64,000 nucleotides of DNA, from contig JAIVFI010000009.1 of NCBI GenBank assembly GCA_025558095.1, forward strand, positions 62,001 to 126,000. Direction: 5' to 3'. Shown here piece after piece: positions 40,719-49,439 of this stretch. The translations under genes and the position numbers were made by a program. The stretch comes from Hyaloraphidium curvatum. Its lineage: Eukaryota > Monoblepharomycota > Hyaloraphidiomycetes > Hyaloraphidiales > Hyaloraphidiaceae. Numbering within the stretch: position 1 is the stretch's first letter; every line of letters begins with the position of its first letter. The notes beneath the pieces are model-generated. The model was not told the DNA's origin and did not search any database. It saw only the letters and a program-made list of their open reading frames with translations.

Positions 40719-41441
40719 GCTGTCGGGGAATGTAATGAGTCAGTTGACGCATCTATCTCTTGGAGCGTCTTCTTGCCCTATGCGTCTGCAGAGGGTTTCC
40801 GGTCATTCTAGCTTTTGCTAGCCGATCTGTGGCGGACGCACAGTCAGCAAATGTGACCGGAACTGTCCTGGAATCGGAGAGGAGCGAGCTCTCATCAAGG
40901 TGTTACACCGTTCAGTGTCCCATCAGAGTGCCTGTGGGGTCGGCTTTGTCCCACAGCGCCGCGCTCCCCAGTTGACGGCCGACCATGTACCCGCCTCCCT
41001 GCTGTTCTTCCGACTGGGCCGTCGGCTCGGCGCCCTCGTTCCACTGTTGCGGCAACTGTAAGCCTTCCGGCCAAGGCTGCAACTCGCATCAAGCCGTCGG
41101 CCCGGTGCGTCCACGCCAGCTGGCCGGACCGGCATTCGGAGGCGGCGAAAGGGACAACCGGGGAGCGCGCGAAGCAGTAAAGCAGGAGCCGTTGGCGCTG
41201 GAATCGAGCTTGGCTTGTCTTCGGGGCTTCGGCATCAACCAGCTGACTCTAGGTGCTGGCGGCTCCCAAAGATCGAGGCATGGCGGGTTCGGCGCGTCGG
41301 GCCGGGCGGGATGCTCGGCTTACAAATCCGGCTCGGTCAGCGCGGCTTGCTCGGCACCCTACATAAACCCCGGCTCCAGGCCAACTCTGCATCAACCACC
41401 TTCCAAACGACGCAGCCTGCCTACCTCTCCGACCATTCAGA
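40719..41441. other. Intergenic part of the left arm
   Basis: Contains the decayed Cys-gene copy (40900-41200, listed separately) and the presumed promoter of the microprotein gene. The final 150 bp match 53804-53950 in inverted orientation. Confidence 0.5.
40900..41200 (+). pseudogene. Decayed copy of a Cys-rich small-protein gene
   Basis: It aligns with the gene copy at 53990-54358 (opposite strand). Exon-1-like sequence reads TGTTACACCGTTCAGTGTCCC and then lacks about 7 nt before the splice GTGGGG, shifting frame. Exon-2-like sequence begins GGCCAAGGCTGC but has lost about 20 nt that encode GRHVAQV in the other copy. No ATG precedes the first Cys codon. It is therefore a broken duplicate. 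Confidence 0.7.
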
Positions 41442-41680
41442 ATGTGCTTCCCCACGACCTGCCCTGACTGCCACAAGACCGCCTGTGAGTGCCGAGCGTC
41501 CCTGCTCCGCTTCCCCGACCGGCGCTCACACTTTCTCCGACCCCAGGGGGAGGCTGCGGCCGCCACGTCGCCGGCGTCGCCGCCAGCGTCAAGCCCGCGG
41601 ACCGCTGCATGCACGTCTCCTGGCCGGACATGCCCAAGCCGGCGCAGCAGCAGCCGGCGAAGGCCATCGCCGGGCACTGA
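41442..41680 (+). CDS. 58-aa Cys-rich microprotein (left-arm copy)
   Basis: Exons 41442-41484 and 41547-41680 are joined over a 62-nt GTGAGT...CCCCAG intron, which creates a Trp codon. The product begins MCFPTTCPDCHKTAW and continues GGCGRHVAGV; its later RC and the C-terminal AIAGH complete 58 aa. The pattern MC..TC..C.KT.W.GCG.HV...V.....RC resembles a family of very short fungal and plant proteins of unknown function with CxxC and GCGxH motifs, probably zinc-binding. The right-arm copy at 53565-53803 encodes the same protein. It is too short and too split for ordinary ORF prediction, so it may be missed in automated annotation. Confidence 0.8.
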
Positions 41681-42153
41681 GCCCCCGGCCCTGGCCGGCC
41701 CTGCCCGACTCCTCGGACGGGCTGCCGCCGCCACCACAGACATTGCTTGAACATCGCGGGCCGATGCGGGCACCCAGGAGCCTGCGGGCCGCCGCGAGCC
41801 CGGATTCCGGGCACCTTCTTCTTCACATCTCCGCGTAGAACTCTTGCCGCCCTCGGGCCGCACGCACAGATGTAGATACCCACTAGATCTCTTTCTCTCT
41901 TTCATCTGCTCTGTTTGTGCCGCCCCGTGCGTCCGCGTCCAAGAGGAGCATATCCAGTGGATCGAGGGAAGTGCGTCAGTCCGACTTCGAAGACCACAGC
42001 CGGTCGTAGCAAAGACTACCAGCGAAATGAACACATACATTGATACGATGCTGTGCAATAGTACATGACTGGACTTCGGCACGACGGCACTTTGAACCAC
42101 TTCGCGCCTTGCAACTCCTCCCCAGCGCAGCCCCATGAAGGCGCCCGCCTCCA

Positions 42154-42321
42154 TCAAGCGGACCTCGGTCCAGGCGCCACCCGCCCTCTCCCGCGCAAGT
42201 TCAACACCGAGTACGTCGCCGCAAACAGCACGAACCACCCCCCGATGCACGCCTCGAGCACCGCCCACCATCCCGGCAGGCCGTCCCCGTGCGGCCTGGT
42301 GAGCGTCGCCGCCACGCTGAC
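42154..42321 (-). pseudogene. 3' fragment of the UNC93-like transporter gene
   Basis: About 168 bp matching the end of the intact transporter (52918-53084): the frame reads SVAATLTRPHGDG, then ACIGGWFVLFAATYSVL and the identical C-terminus RVAPGPRSA and stop (42154-42156). Homology stops abruptly at 42321, where microprotein intron/exon sequence begins. There is no start or upstream membrane domain. Confidence 0.85.
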
Positions 42322-42476
42322 TCTCTTCTGCGACCCCAAGGGGGAGGCTGCGGCCGTCACGTCGCCGGTGTCGCCGCCAGCGTCAAGCCTGCGGACCGCT
42401 GCATGCACGTCTCCTGGCCAGACATGCCCAAGCCGGCGCAGCAGCAGCAGGCGAAGGCCATCGCCGGGCACTGAGC
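42322..42476 (+). pseudogene. Orphan second exon of the Cys microprotein
   Basis: After GACCCCAAG the sequence reads GGGGAGGCTGCGGCCGTCAC and on to GCCATCGCCGGGCACTGA, the complete exon 2 (GGCGRHVAGV ... AIAGH, with one extra Gln in the Gln run). Exon 1 is missing: directly upstream is the truncated UNC93-like fragment on the other strand. The 3' flank to about 42700 is also conserved. Confidence 0.82.
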
Positions 42477-42971
42477 CGGTCATGGCCGGCCCTGCCGGAC
42501 ACCTCGGACGGACTGCCGGCGACATCCACAGACATTGCTTGAACATTGCGCACCGATGGAGGCGCCCAGGAGCCTGCTCTCCGCCGCGAACCTGGATTCC
42601 GGTACCCTCTTCTTCGCAACTCCACGTAGAACTCTTGCCGCCCTCGGGCCGCATCCACACTTGTAGATACCCACTAGATCTCTCTGTCGCACCCAACTGC
42701 TTTGAGCCGTCCGAATGACCACTAATGGCCTCCCAGGCCCCCGTACATGGCCGGGAGCGGCAGGGGCCGGACTCGGACCAAGATAATAGTCGAAGATGTA
42801 TTGATGCGAGCCCCCGAGATACTCGTATTTCGCCGCCTCCTCCTCCCGACGCGTCCAAAACCTCCTCTTGAAGTGCATATACCGAACCTTTCGGACGTTG
42901 ACGAGTTCGAATACGAGCCGCGACAGGAGCAGACTTCCCAAGCCGAACTCACCTCCGACTGGATAAGCACT

Positions 42972-44029: not shown

Positions 44030-46018
44030 CTAGATCGCTATCCTCCGCGGCAAAAACGCCCGCACCACCATCTCCGCCTCCCCCAGATCCACATCCGGCT
44101 CCGCGTTCGCGGCGCTCTTGTGCCGGTGGTCGTACGCCCAGAACCGCAGCAGCAGATCCTGCCCCGCCCTCTCCTCCGCCGTCAGCACGTGGTCCAGGTC
44201 GCCGTTGAGCAGCGGGGAGAAGGAGTGGTACCGCAGGACGTACGAGACCTCGGGGGGAAGATGCGGGGCGAGGCGGAGGTGCGCGACGTCGTCGTGGCCG
44301 AACTGCGTCTCGATGGCGGCCAGCCCGCGGCCGGCGAGGGAAGCGAGTGTTTCGCGGGATGCGGGCCGGCCGTCGACGAACAGGGCGTCGTTGGTGCACA
44401 CCACGTTTGCCGGGTCCTCCCCGTCCAGCAGCGCCACCTTGCCGACGTCGTGGTACAGCGCCAGGAACAGCAGCCGCGGGTCGGTCACGCCGTCCTTTTG
44501 CATGGCTTCGAACACCTGCAGCCCGTGGACGTACCCCGACAGGCCCATGAGGGAGTTGTCCGAGTCGTCCGTGACGTTCTTGAGCGCGAGGAAGGCGTCC
44601 CACGGGTCGACGTCGGGGCCGAGGGCGAGCCGCGAGGACCATTTCGCGCGCAGGGCGGCGATGGAGGCGGGGGTCTGCAGCCGGTGGCGGTCGTAGATCT
44701 CGGCGGCGCGGGCGGCGAATGCCTGCTGCTCCGCGGGGGGCAGGCGCGGGGGGTTGCGCCGGGCGGCCTGTTCGATGACTTCGCGCTGCGGGAGGTCCGC
44801 AGGGTTGGATTGGGCGAGCACGAGGGCGGCGCGGAAGGCAGCGGGGTGGGTGGTGGTGTTTGCGGGGGCCGGTGCCGGGCCGCCGGAGCGGGCGAGGCGC
44901 AGGGCATGGGCGGCGCGGTGGCCCGGGGCGGCGGCCGCGGCCCAGTAGTTCGTTGATTTCTCGGCTCCGCCGGGGCGCAGTTTGTCGAAGGAGCGCGTGT
45001 CCGTGTGCACGATGGGGGCCGCGTGGAGCACCGCGCACGGGTCCACGGGGCGGTCCAACGCAACATTGTGGTTTTCCACGTACGAGGGCAGGGTCTTTCG
45101 GGGCACGTCGGTGTTGAGGCCCATCGGGCCGCCCGTGGCGTTGGCCGCCAAGGCGGCGACGAACTCGGGGTTGGGCACGCGGCGCGAGCGCACGGGGAAT
45201 GCGGCGGCGCGGGGCAGCGGCTCGCGCTCCAGCACCGTGCGGTCCAGGTAGTCCGCCGCCGCCGAGCAGAAGACATGGTCCATCTTCCTGGCCGACGCCA
45301 GCGCCGCCTCGGGGACCGGGGAGAGCACGGTGCGGTGGCAGTGCGCCCAGAACCCGGCGGTGAAGAGGGGCGCCATGACCTCGACGATGAAAGCGGGGCC
45401 CACCTCCCATGTGGCAGTGCGGCGCTCGTCGGCCCACAGGTGCTGGAAGGGCGTCTGCTGGCGCTCCGCGGCGGGGTGGCGCGCGATTGACGGCTGCGAG
45501 AGCGGCGCCCGCGAAAGCAGTGCCGAGGCCAGCATCGCCGAGAGGTTGAAGTTGTCGCGCCCAAAGGCCATGTCCGCGTCCAGGCACCAGACAAAATCGA
45601 ACGACGAGGCCAGCTGCGGCGTCACCGCGGCCTTCCAGAAGGCGGGTTTGCCGACGGGCAGCTCGTACGTGCCGGCGACGAGCTCCTCCACGCGGGCCTC
45701 GTGCACTGCGATCTCGAGCGCCTTTGCGGCGGCGGGGCCCTCGAACGAGTTGAGCGCGAACCGCACCGCCGTGCCCCTGTACGACGCCATCTGGGCCACG
45801 AAGGCGCGGCGCTCGGCGTGCGGCACGGCGGACGCGATGAGCACGCGGATCGGCGGGTCCATCGGCGGGGCGGGAGGGTTCGTGGCGGGGCCGGGCAGCA
45901 CGTCGGGCAAGCGGGGCGACGTTCCCCCCGGGACGGCCCCGCCGAGCAGCAGCACCGAAGCCGCCAGAAGGCACGCCGCCGCGATGGCCCGCCCGGCCGG
46001 CGGCCGCGGGGAGCCCAT
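44030..46018 (-). CDS. DUF707-like glycosyltransferase domain fused to a myo-inositol oxygenase (MIOX) domain
   Basis: Single exon, 662 aa. ATG 46018 is followed by a signal anchor (AIAAACLLAASVLLLGG), suggesting a lumenal type II membrane protein. Residues ~60-330 resemble DUF707: FDFVWCLDADMAFG (DxD-like), SQPSIARH, and VGPAFIVEVMAPLFTAGFW, close to the EIMAPVFSRAAW signature. Residues ~455-650 match MIOX with every di-iron ligand position filled: GYVHGLQ (His), LYHDVGK (His-Asp), FGHDD (His), LRYHSF (His) and WAYDH (Asp). MIOX converts myo-inositol plus O2 to D-glucuronate; MIOX enzymes are normally cytosolic and stand-alone. The start lies 79 bp from that of the divergent UDP-galactopyranose mutase. 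I know no described protein with this pairing. Confidence 0.82.
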   Translation of the reverse strand: MGSPRPPAGRAIAAACLLAASVLLLGGAVPGGTSPRLPDVLPGPATNPPAPPMDPPIRVLIASAVPHAERRAFVAQMASYRGTAVRFALNSFEGPAAAKALEIAVHEARVEELVAGTYELPVGKPAFWKAAVTPQLASSFDFVWCLDADMAFGRDNFNLSAMLASALLSRAPLSQPSIARHPAAERQQTPFQHLWADERRTATWEVGPAFIVEVMAPLFTAGFWAHCHRTVLSPVPEAALASARKMDHVFCSAAADYLDRTVLEREPLPRAAAFPVRSRRVPNPEFVAALAANATGGPMGLNTDVPRKTLPSYVENHNVALDRPVDPCAVLHAAPIVHTDTRSFDKLRPGGAEKSTNYWAAAAAPGHRAAHALRLARSGGPAPAPANTTTHPAAFRAALVLAQSNPADLPQREVIEQAARRNPPRLPPAEQQAFAARAAEIYDRHRLQTPASIAALRAKWSSRLALGPDVDPWDAFLALKNVTDDSDNSLMGLSGYVHGLQVFEAMQKDGVTDPRLLFLALYHDVGKVALLDGEDPANVVCTNDALFVDGRPASRETLASLAGRGLAAIETQFGHDDVAHLRLAPHLPPEVSYVLRYHSFSPLLNGDLDHVLTAEERAGQDLLLRFWAYDHRHKSAANAEPDVDLGEAEMVVRAFLPRRIAI

Positions 46019-46097
46019 CGGGCCCTCGCAGCGCGCAGGGGAAGGCCAAGGGATTGGACCCATTGCCGCCCGCCTACCCGCCAATCCCCGGGAGGCC
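46019..46097. promoter_or_regulatory. Putative bidirectional promoter of the MIOX-fusion and UGM genes
   Basis: Only 79 bp separate the two divergent start codons, so promoter elements must be shared or overlap the opposite leader. The sequence is GC-rich (GCAGCGCGCAGGGGAAGG...); no known factor site is recognised. Confidence 0.45.
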
Positions 46098-47558
46098 ATG
46101 GGACCGGCCATCGTGATCCTGGGGGCGGGCCCGGCGGGCCTCGGTGCCGCCTCCGCGCTCTCTGCCCTCGGCGACGCCGCCCCTCCCTGGCTGCTCCTCG
46201 AAACCTCGGACTCCCCCGGCGGCCTCGCTTCCACCGACGCGACCCCCGAGGGCTTCTTCTTCGACCGGGGCGGCCACGTGATCTTCTCGCACTGCCGCGA
46301 ATTTGACGCCGCGCTGGACGCCGCCCTGCCGCGGGGGGAGGACTGGCGGTGGCACGCGCGGGCGTCGGCGGTCCGGTGCAATGGCAGCTGGGTGCCGTAT
46401 CCGTTCCAGAACAACGTGGCGGCGCTGCCGGAAAAGGAGAGGGAGGAGTGCATTGCCGGGATGGTGGAGGCGCTCGAGGCGCGGCGGGAGCGGGAGAAGG
46501 CGGGCAAGGCGGGGCCCCCAGCCGATTTCGACGAGCTGATCCTGCGCACCATGGGTCGCGGCATCGCGGACCTCTTCATGCGCCCGTACAACGCCAAGGT
46601 GTGGACCGTGCCCCCCTCCGCCATGTCGTGCTCCTGGATCGGCGAGCGCGTGGCGGTCCCCGACCTCGCGGGCGCGGTGGCCGCCGCGAGGGAGGGCAGG
46701 CTGGATCCGGGGTGGGGACCCAATGCGCGGTTCAGGTTCCCAGCGAGGGGGGGCACGGGGGCCATTTGGAAGGGGGTGGCGGGGAAGTTGGACCAGAGGA
46801 GGGTGAGGTACGGGTGCCGCTTGGTGCGCGTTGACACCGAGGCCCGGAAACTGGTGCTCGCCGACGGCACTTCGCTCGGGTACCAACGGCTCATCAGCAC
46901 GGTACCGCTCGACACCCTGGTTGGGATGCTCCACCCCCCGCGCCCGGACCTCTCCGCCGCCTCCTCCCGCCTGGTGCGCACGACCGTGCACGTCGTCGGC
47001 CTGGGCATCCGCGGCCGCCCGCCGCCGGAGATCGCCGCCGCATGCTGGCTCTACTTCCCCGACCCGCAGGTGCCCTTCTACCGCGCCACCGTGTTCTCCA
47101 ACTACTCGGAGCACAATGTGCCGCCTGAGGAGACCTTCCTCCCGACCCTGATGGTCGCCGACGGCTCACCACCCGACCCGGAACCGCGCCCGGGACCGTA
47201 CTGGTCCCTCATGCTCGAGATCCCCTCCCTCCCCTCCTCCCCACCCCCGGCGGACCTCATCCCTCGCGCCGTGTCCGGCGCCATCCACACCGGCATCCTC
47301 CCCCCCTCTTCCTCCCTGGTATCCCTGCACTCCCTCGCCCTCCCGCACGGGTACCCCGTCCCCACCCTCTCCCGCGACTCGGCTCTGGAAACCGTGATCC
47401 CCGCGCTTGCAGATTTTGGGATCGCGGGGGTCGGCAGGTTCGGGGGGTGGAGATACGAGCTGGGGAACCAGGACCATGCGTTCGGGGAGGGGTGGGCGGC
47501 GGCGCGGGGGGCGGTGGAGGGGATGAGGCGGGAGGCGGGGCCGATGGAGGCCGGGTGA
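46098..47558 (+). CDS. glfA: UDP-galactopyranose mutase
   Basis: Single exon, 486 aa. ATG 46098 is chosen because it directly opens the FAD-binding Rossmann segment (VILGAGPAGLGAASAL). The open frame extends far upstream only as an antisense shadow of the fusion gene. The match to fungal UgmA/GlfA is continuous: SPGGLASTDATPEGF, GGHVIFSH, WVPYPFQNN, IADLFMRPYNAKVW, WGPNARFRFPARGGTG, a GY.RLISTVPLD strand and the C-terminal GRFGGWRYELGNQDH. The enzyme uses reduced FAD to interconvert UDP-Galp and UDP-Galf, the donor for galactofuranose in fungal wall glycans. The length fits the ~500-aa eukaryotic class. Confidence 0.96.
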   Translation: MGPAIVILGAGPAGLGAASALSALGDAAPPWLLLETSDSPGGLASTDATPEGFFFDRGGHVIFSHCREFDAALDAALPRGEDWRWHARASAVRCNGSWVPYPFQNNVAALPEKEREECIAGMVEALEARREREKAGKAGPPADFDELILRTMGRGIADLFMRPYNAKVWTVPPSAMSCSWIGERVAVPDLAGAVAAAREGRLDPGWGPNARFRFPARGGTGAIWKGVAGKLDQRRVRYGCRLVRVDTEARKLVLADGTSLGYQRLISTVPLDTLVGMLHPPRPDLSAASSRLVRTTVHVVGLGIRGRPPPEIAAACWLYFPDPQVPFYRATVFSNYSEHNVPPEETFLPTLMVADGSPPDPEPRPGPYWSLMLEIPSLPSSPPPADLIPRAVSGAIHTGILPPSSSLVSLHSLALPHGYPVPTLSRDSALETVIPALADFGIAGVGRFGGWRYELGNQDHAFGEGWAAARGAVEGMRREAGPMEAG

Positions 47559-47788: not shown

Positions 47789-49439
47789 ATGCACCTCTAC
47801 GGCGGGTCCGCGCCGCCGCCCGCGCCGCACGCGCGAATGCTGTCGCTGCTGTCGGCCATCGGCGAAACGACGCCCGCCGCGCAGCCCCCGCCCGCACGCG
47901 CCCACGCGCACGGCGAAGGCCCGAGACGCGCGGGAAACGGGCACGCTGCGGAAAGCGCCTCCGGCGGGCCGCGGCAGGAGGCGTCCAAGCCCAGCGGCCC
48001 CCCCGCTTCGGGCGTCCAACCCGCCGCCCGCACCGCCCCCGCGCCCCACTCGGATCCCCGGCCGCGCCGCACGCCCTCGCTCATCCGCCCCCCCGGCCCG
48101 CCGCATGAATTACCGAGGACCCACGGGGGGGCGGGAGGGGACGGGTTCGTGGGCGAGGCGGCGTTCGCGGGGGCGGGGATGAAGAGGCGCAAGAGGAGGG
48201 GGGAGCCGGGGGATGCGAGGCGGTGGTGGGTGGCTCGGGCCGGCTGTGATCATCTGGGGCATTGCGGAGTTGCTGACGGGGAATTTGGGCAGGGCGTGTC
48301 CCGAGCCGGGCTGCTCGAGCGTGGGTTTCTCGCCGCTCGTCTCTCTGCGCTCCGCGTCCCAACTGATCTCCCCTGCCGATTTCCCTCCAATTTGCCCCTC
48401 GACCCGTCCCCCCTCCAGTCCTTCGAGCGCCGGTACGACCTCGAGCGCCACTCCTGGGTGCACCGCGCCGACCGCCCGTTCACCTGCAACGACTGCGGCA
48501 AGGCCTTCATCCGGCAGGACTACCTCAACAAGCACCCGTGCCCCGGACCGCTGGCGCCCGAGCAGGCGGGCAAGAGGCGGTGGGTTCTCGTCGCGTGCGT
48601 TGCAGGGTCGGATCGGGCTGATTTCGGTGGATGCGGGCAGGAGGAAATCGGCGCCGGCGGGAAGGTCGCCCGCCGGTCTCTCGCCCGCGTCGGGGTCGGC
48701 GTCGCCCCCCGTGCGCCCCGCGGCGATCGCCAAGCCCGGGCTCGCGCAGGCGGCGTCGGCGTTCACATCGCGGGCGACGCTGTTTGACGGGCCGGCGGAC
48801 GACGGGGAGGAGGAGGGGTCGTCGGACGTGGATGACGACGGGGAGGTAGAGTACGACGCCGAGATGGACGAGAGGGAGGGGGCGCGGATGGAGGTGGTGG
48901 AGGTGGAGCGGACGGAGGACTACAGCCGGCGCGCCTCTCTCGAGCCCTCGGACAAGCAGGCTTTCGACCCTCGGCGCGGGATCCCCGCTCCCGCCCTCCC
49001 CACCCCGCAACCCATCAGCACCCCGCGCGACCTCCCGACCTCGCACCTCCCCGCCATCCGCCTCCCCTCCCCCGAGATCGCGATCGCCCCGCGCTCGCGC
49101 GCCTCCAGCACCGCCCGCTCCCCCCTCCAGGACTTCCTCCTCTTCGAGCCCCCCGTCCCCACGGACTTCCCCGCCCTCCTCGGCACCCCCCACCCGCGCA
49201 CGCGCTCCGCATCCGGCAGCCCCCTCGCGGCCCCGCAGGGCGATCACCCCCACGACGCGATGGCGTGCGCCGCGCGCGCGCGGGACCTCGAGGAGCGGCT
49301 GCGCGCCTCCGAGGCGCGGTGCCAGCAGCTCGGGGCGCTGCTGATCCAGGCGCGGAGCGAGGCGAGCGCGTGGAAGCAGAGCAGCGCGTACCACCAGCGC
49401 AAGGCGGCCGAGGCCGGGGTTGGGGAGGGAGCGAGGTGA
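47789..49439 (+). CDS. C2H2 zinc-finger transcription factor
   Basis: Four exons (47789-48225, 48293-48320, 48419-48579, 48641-49439) give 474 aa; introns of 67, 98 and 61 nt all start GTGGGT. The 28-nt second exon supplies ACPEPGCSS. Joined to SFERRYDLERHSWVH it makes a perfect C-x4-C-x3-F-x5-L-x2-H-x3-H finger that is invisible in any single frame. A second finger follows: FTCNDCGKAFIRQDYLNKH with a terminal Cys in place of the last His. A basic stretch precedes the fingers (MKRRKRRGE). A highly acidic region (DDGEEEGSSDVDDDGEVEYD) follows, and the C-terminus has a coiled coil (ARDLEERLRASEARCQQLGALL). Likely a nuclear sequence-specific regulator. Targets unknown. Confidence 0.85.

Follow-up and report, generated by a model that had tools for sequence, protein, structure and literature searches.

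The window, a 64,000-nucleotide stretch of DNA from Hyaloraphidium curvatum, carries on its minus strand a single open frame of 662 codons followed by a TAG stop (44030..46018), which we refer to as the fusion gene. An uninterrupted frame had been reported at this position in an initial annotation made from the sequence, and our analysis recovered it in full, with 662 amino acids and no internal stops. An alternative in-frame ATG lies 45 bp upstream, at 46063 on the minus strand, has a G at both -3 and +4, and would add 15 residues to the protein. The neighbouring gene, arranged head to head and transcribed divergently, is a single open frame for a UDP-galactopyranose mutase (UGM; 46098..47558, plus strand) that matches Aspergillus fumigatus UGM at 2.8e-150; 79 bp separate the start codons of the two genes. 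Coordinates of features within the fusion gene refer to the minus strand throughout.

The encoded protein begins with a predicted signal anchor, or single transmembrane segment, placed at residues 11–29 by hydropathy (45932..45988). This segment has a Kyte-Doolittle mean of 2.39 over 19 residues, the best value beyond residue 60 being 1.45, and it is the sole such stretch in the protein, in agreement with the anchor proposed originally. Positive charge lies on its N-terminal side, and a Pro-rich stretch comes after it. Type II Golgi glycosyltransferases are alike in having a short N-terminus, a single anchor, a Pro-rich stem and a GT-A-type domain, whereas the fusion protein has an additional C-terminal oxygenase domain. 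Four N-glycosylation sequons are present versus 1.5 expected (P 0.06), a number that is not clearly above chance and at most suggestive of a lumenal C-terminus.

Residues ~57–345 (44984..45850) form a putative DUF707-type GT-A glycosyltransferase domain, supported by hhalign, hmmsearch and alignment with phage DUF707 proteins. The initial annotation had assigned this region to DUF707 by its motifs, and against Pfam DUF707 (PF05212) that call was not significant (E 0.21, 11.2 bits versus a cut-off of 24.1), so we file the N-terminal half as DUF707-like and not as a Pfam member. The relationship itself was recovered with a profile built from six bacterial DUF707 proteins taken from genomes, which matched the N-terminal half by hhalign at P 1.3e-6 versus 0.5 for the MIOX half as a control; hmmsearch matches to DUF707 covered residues 134–230 and 321–344. 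In a joint alignment with bacterial DUF707, D147, D149, P176, E213, P217 and D247 were invariant, and the same core is kept in relatives from viral contigs. D147 and D149 belong to the DxD motif DADMAFG (residues 147–153; 45560..45580), both aspartates being invariant in the bacterial and phage DUF707 alignments. E213 lies in VEVMAPLF (residues 212–219; 45362..45385), within the VExMAP pattern conserved in DUF707 relatives, and D247, in KMDHVF (residues 245–250; 45269..45286), aligns with the Asp of the GLD motif in bacterial DUF707 and is a candidate catalytic residue. A published description of plant DUF707 treats it as GT-A-like and places the DxD of At2g28310 at 198 and its probable catalytic Asp at 298 (PMC3522684); D147 and D247 of the fusion protein show the same 100-residue spacing. 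A model of the N-terminal half, built on 13 sequences and of low confidence (mean pLDDT 42.9), had a best PDB Z of 7.6, and almost all of the PDB matches listed for this weak model were GT-A-type nucleotide-sugar enzymes. By sequence, the N-terminal half had no useful match in the PDB, and its own sequence found no relative in the viral_contigs collection. These data moderately support a DUF707 identity. The DxD, QP and VExMAP motifs, the catalytic-type Asp ~100 residues on and the terminal HT are shared with the family, whereas the sub-threshold Pfam score, KMDH in place of GLD, a ~65-residue insertion ahead of the HT and the joining to an oxygenase set the fusion protein apart.

The DUF707 family occurs in plants, bacteria and, as seen here, viral contigs. 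DUF707-family proteins lie on 18 viral contigs from IMG/VR (L092–L109), with at most 42% identity to a bacterial one, and this GT-A-like family thus appears to be carried by phages. The genome also holds a second DUF707-like single-frame gene with a hydrophobic N-terminus (L005 1300-2310, minus strand; genome C38:473057-473497), which falls below the Pfam cut-off with 16.4 bits but matches the profile of bacterial DUF707 proteins at P 1.9e-14.

The C-terminal half, residues 429–662 (44033..44734), is an HD di-iron oxygenase domain whose membership of the myo-inositol oxygenase (MIOX) family is solid. It matches Pfam MIOX (PF05153) at 3.6e-11, with 43.6 bits versus a cut-off of 25, human MIOX (2ibn) in a PDB sequence search at 0.0015, and bacterial MIOX in a plasmid collection at 1e-7. 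An AF2 model of this half, with pLDDT block means mostly 76–96 and dips to 60–74, aligned with mouse MIOX (2huo) at Z 23.5 over 230 residues (rmsd 3.6), a match partly favoured by the canonical MIOX rows in the model's alignment. The MIOX domain recognized earlier is borne out by these scores, as are its iron ligands: H498 in YVHGLQ (44516..44533), H523 and D524 in YHDVGK (44438..44455), H575 in FGHDD (44288..44302), H598 in RYHSF (44219..44233) and D630 in YDHRHK (44117..44134) align with the ligands of mouse MIOX, which we take to be H98, H123/D124, H194, H220 and D253. The same motifs supply S599 and the two lid lysines, K527 and K634, equivalent to S221, K127 and K257, and the lid motif TDDSDNS (residues 483–489; 44552..44572) supplies D484 and D487 as the equivalents of D85 and D88. 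All six iron ligands, and D85, S87 and D88, are invariant in 82 bacterial MIOX, and the fusion protein keeps 22 of the 22 positions compared with that set, comprising the ligands, the lid residues D85/S87/D88, K127, S221, K257, the HxxQT helix and others. In MIOX, the lid salt bridges D85–K127 and D88–K257 keep inositol in place (PMC2584100), and the residues of both bridges are retained here. The fusion protein is like mouse and human MIOX (2HUO, 2IBN) in predicted fold, iron ligands, lid DxSD, lid lysines, S221 and HxxQT helix, and unlike them in being a fusion with a predicted membrane anchor and in its sequence divergence, with 27–32% identity to canonical bacterial members that are at least 46% identical to one another.

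A further difference lies between the lid lysine K127 and the third iron-binding motif, and it was overlooked in the initial annotation, which had correctly found every iron ligand in place. The segment from K127 to the conserved Gly before H194 comprises 37 residues in the fusion protein versus 55 in all 82 bacterial MIOX, 18 being missing, and the shortened loop DGEDPANVVCTNDALFVDG (44369..44425) stands where canonical MIOX has GEPQWxVVGDTFPVGC. VGDT is present in 82 of the 82 bacterial sequences and absent here. In mouse MIOX, G141 and D142 of this GDT loop contact inositol. Since the substrate loop is missing, we regard the domain as a divergent member of the MIOX family and not as a canonical myo-inositol oxygenase. 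The loss of an invariant loop suggests that the substrate has changed or become larger and is probably not simply free myo-inositol, and we infer that an intact iron site is combined with a more open pocket. The functional reading of the initial annotation, in which the enzyme would make glucuronate or act on an inositol-containing glycan at the site of glycan assembly, is thus partly supported and is refined by the missing loop.

This loop bears directly on whether the domain could be an ordinary myo-inositol oxygenase whose substrate is free inositol, with the loop change affecting kinetics only and free glucuronate being supplied to the lumen or the cell exterior. The retention of the iron ligands, lid aspartates and lid lysines would be expected of such an enzyme, the genome has an inositol phosphate synthase gene, and the search of the rest of the genome found no other MIOX match, making this the sole MIOX-family match found. 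We nevertheless judge this account unlikely, given a GDT loop conserved in every canonical MIOX compared and lost here, an identity to those proteins well below that among them, and no obvious use for free glucuronate at a site of glycan assembly. UDP-sugar dehydrogenase-type genes are present elsewhere in the genome, so the fusion gene need not be the cell's source of GlcA, and UDP-GlcA can probably be made without the fusion enzyme.

The same divergence and loop loss could instead mean that the MIOX-like domain is no longer catalytic and serves as a structural or ligand-binding module on the glycosyltransferase, and our searches of genome_contigs and viral_contigs provided no orthologues showing constraint. 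Used as a single protein query, the MIOX half had no close relative in either collection. A search with a MIOX-half alignment returned nothing from viral_contigs and 80 canonical bacterial MIOX from genome_contigs, not one of which had the deletion in the loop or, within the stretch examined, a match to DUF707. P0001 had no match among phages, and a search of the accessible literature turned up no description of a MIOX-glycosyltransferase fusion. That all 22 iron, lid and helix positions should be kept is, however, improbable long after catalysis has been lost, and we consider a non-catalytic module quite unlikely.

We hold it very improbable that two genes, an intron or an assembly join mimic a single two-domain protein. 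Long chance frames are common in a GC-rich genome such as this one, and introns of ~50–70 bp, seemingly with GTC-type donors, exist in it, as read from a separate locus; the genome's inositol phosphate synthase gene likewise matches in exons. In the fusion gene, however, the coding GC pattern runs unbroken through the anchor, both domains and the linker (GC3 0.87–0.97, GC2 lowest), and 5' of the start the codon-position pattern switches to the one that the divergent gene would give on its opposite strand. No in-frame ATG occurs between codons 299 and 491, and since codon 491 falls within the MIOX domain, past the lid, a separate start for the MIOX half would require splicing. The initial annotation had considered an intron removing one domain. 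A scan of the whole fusion frame for genome-like introns gave seven candidates versus a mean of 5.8 in codon-shuffled copies, which is chance level; none lies in the Ala/Pro-rich linker (residues 346–428; 44735..44983), and all seven, if spliced, would cut out conserved MIOX catalytic residues. The gene also sits on an 849 kb contig. An architecture of anchor, DUF707-type GT-A domain and MIOX-family domain in a single frame is thus supported. The locus from which the intron type was read (L113 2666-3150, plus strand) holds a NOL10-like gene, named by eye, with an apparent intron of ~51 bp and the donor GTCGGG.

Three HD-domain di-iron oxygenases, MIOX, PhnZ and TmpB, were listed as characterised in a 2020 review, all with small-metabolite substrates (PMC8177086). 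It is barely credible that the C-terminal half belongs instead with the phosphonate oxygenases of PhnZ/TmpB type or with the HD phosphohydrolases, despite an HD fold with the identical H...HD...H...H...D di-iron motif and a loop shorter than that of MIOX, and we rejected this reading on fold scores and lid residues: the model's Z is 11.5 to PhnZ, half of its MIOX score of 23.5, and no higher than 6.6 for HD hydrolases, the lid, its lysines and the HxxQT helix of MIOX are retained, and a separate PhnZ-like gene seems to be present in the genome. That gene (L117 1036-1953, minus strand; genome C42:134766-134903) reads as a PhnZ/TmpB-like HD-domain protein (HCLQTAQLAEEDG...LLHDIGD). It had been a candidate for a second MIOX of the genome and was discarded as such, the match being weak and the sequence PhnZ-like on reading; its product is possibly an oxygenase relative separate from MIOX.

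The reading that we favour, and to which we give about an even chance, is that the fusion gene encodes a type II membrane protein in which a lumenal DUF707-type transferase is joined to a divergent MIOX-type oxygenase acting on a substituted inositol or sugar. The protein would probably reside in the Golgi or secretory path, where the N-terminal anchor and Pro-rich stem would hold the GT-A domain in the lumen with the MIOX-family domain behind it. The oxygenase domain would use the mixed-valent di-iron chemistry of MIOX, in which a carbon ring bearing a diol is chelated by the two irons and one of its C-C bonds is cleaved with O2. With the GDT loop lost, a more open active site may admit an inositol or sugar that carries substituents, for instance the head group of an inositol-phosphoceramide or a glycosyl-inositol; alternatively, its substrate may be what the adjoining transferase takes as acceptor or releases as product. 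The outcome would be a glucuronyl-type acid group left on the glycan. Lumenal topology, activity of both domains, the substrate and coupling between the domains are all presumed in this account.

We know of no MIOX that works in the lumen, and a di-iron oxygenase placed there would require lumenal iron, which counts against the type II reading. That the protein is lumenal and has a role where glycans are assembled is nonetheless a reasonable proposal, helped by the adjacent UGM gene. This adjacency carries little weight by itself, since compact genomes often have genes lying close together head to head. In A. fumigatus, a Galf-bearing glycan is partly carried on inositol-phosphoceramide (PMC7712326), which makes an inositol-linked acceptor attractive for the fusion enzyme. 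More tentatively, and with rather more doubt than confidence, we suggest that it may represent a lumenal, glycosyltransferase-coupled di-iron oxygenase that cleaves an inositol or sugar ring already within a lipid or glycan, a MIOX-family enzyme with a macromolecular substrate and not a free metabolite. A membrane- and glycosyltransferase-tied member with its substrate loop partly removed would extend HD oxygenase chemistry to glycan or lipid head groups, would open a way for acidic sugars to arise in a fungal-type cell wall, and would provide the orphan DUF707 family with a substrate that can be tested.

Two other features of the window lie on either side of this gene pair. At 41249-42858, seen on both strands, two similar stretches ~900 bp apart form a duplicated segment, with plus-strand translations that include ...CTSPGRTCPSRRSSSRRRPSPGTEP... 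and ...CTSPGQTCPSRRSSSRRRPSPGTEP..., and at 47789-48787 on the plus strand a frame contains a stretch, FTCNDCGKAFIRQDYLNKH, that by eye resembles a C2H2 zinc finger.
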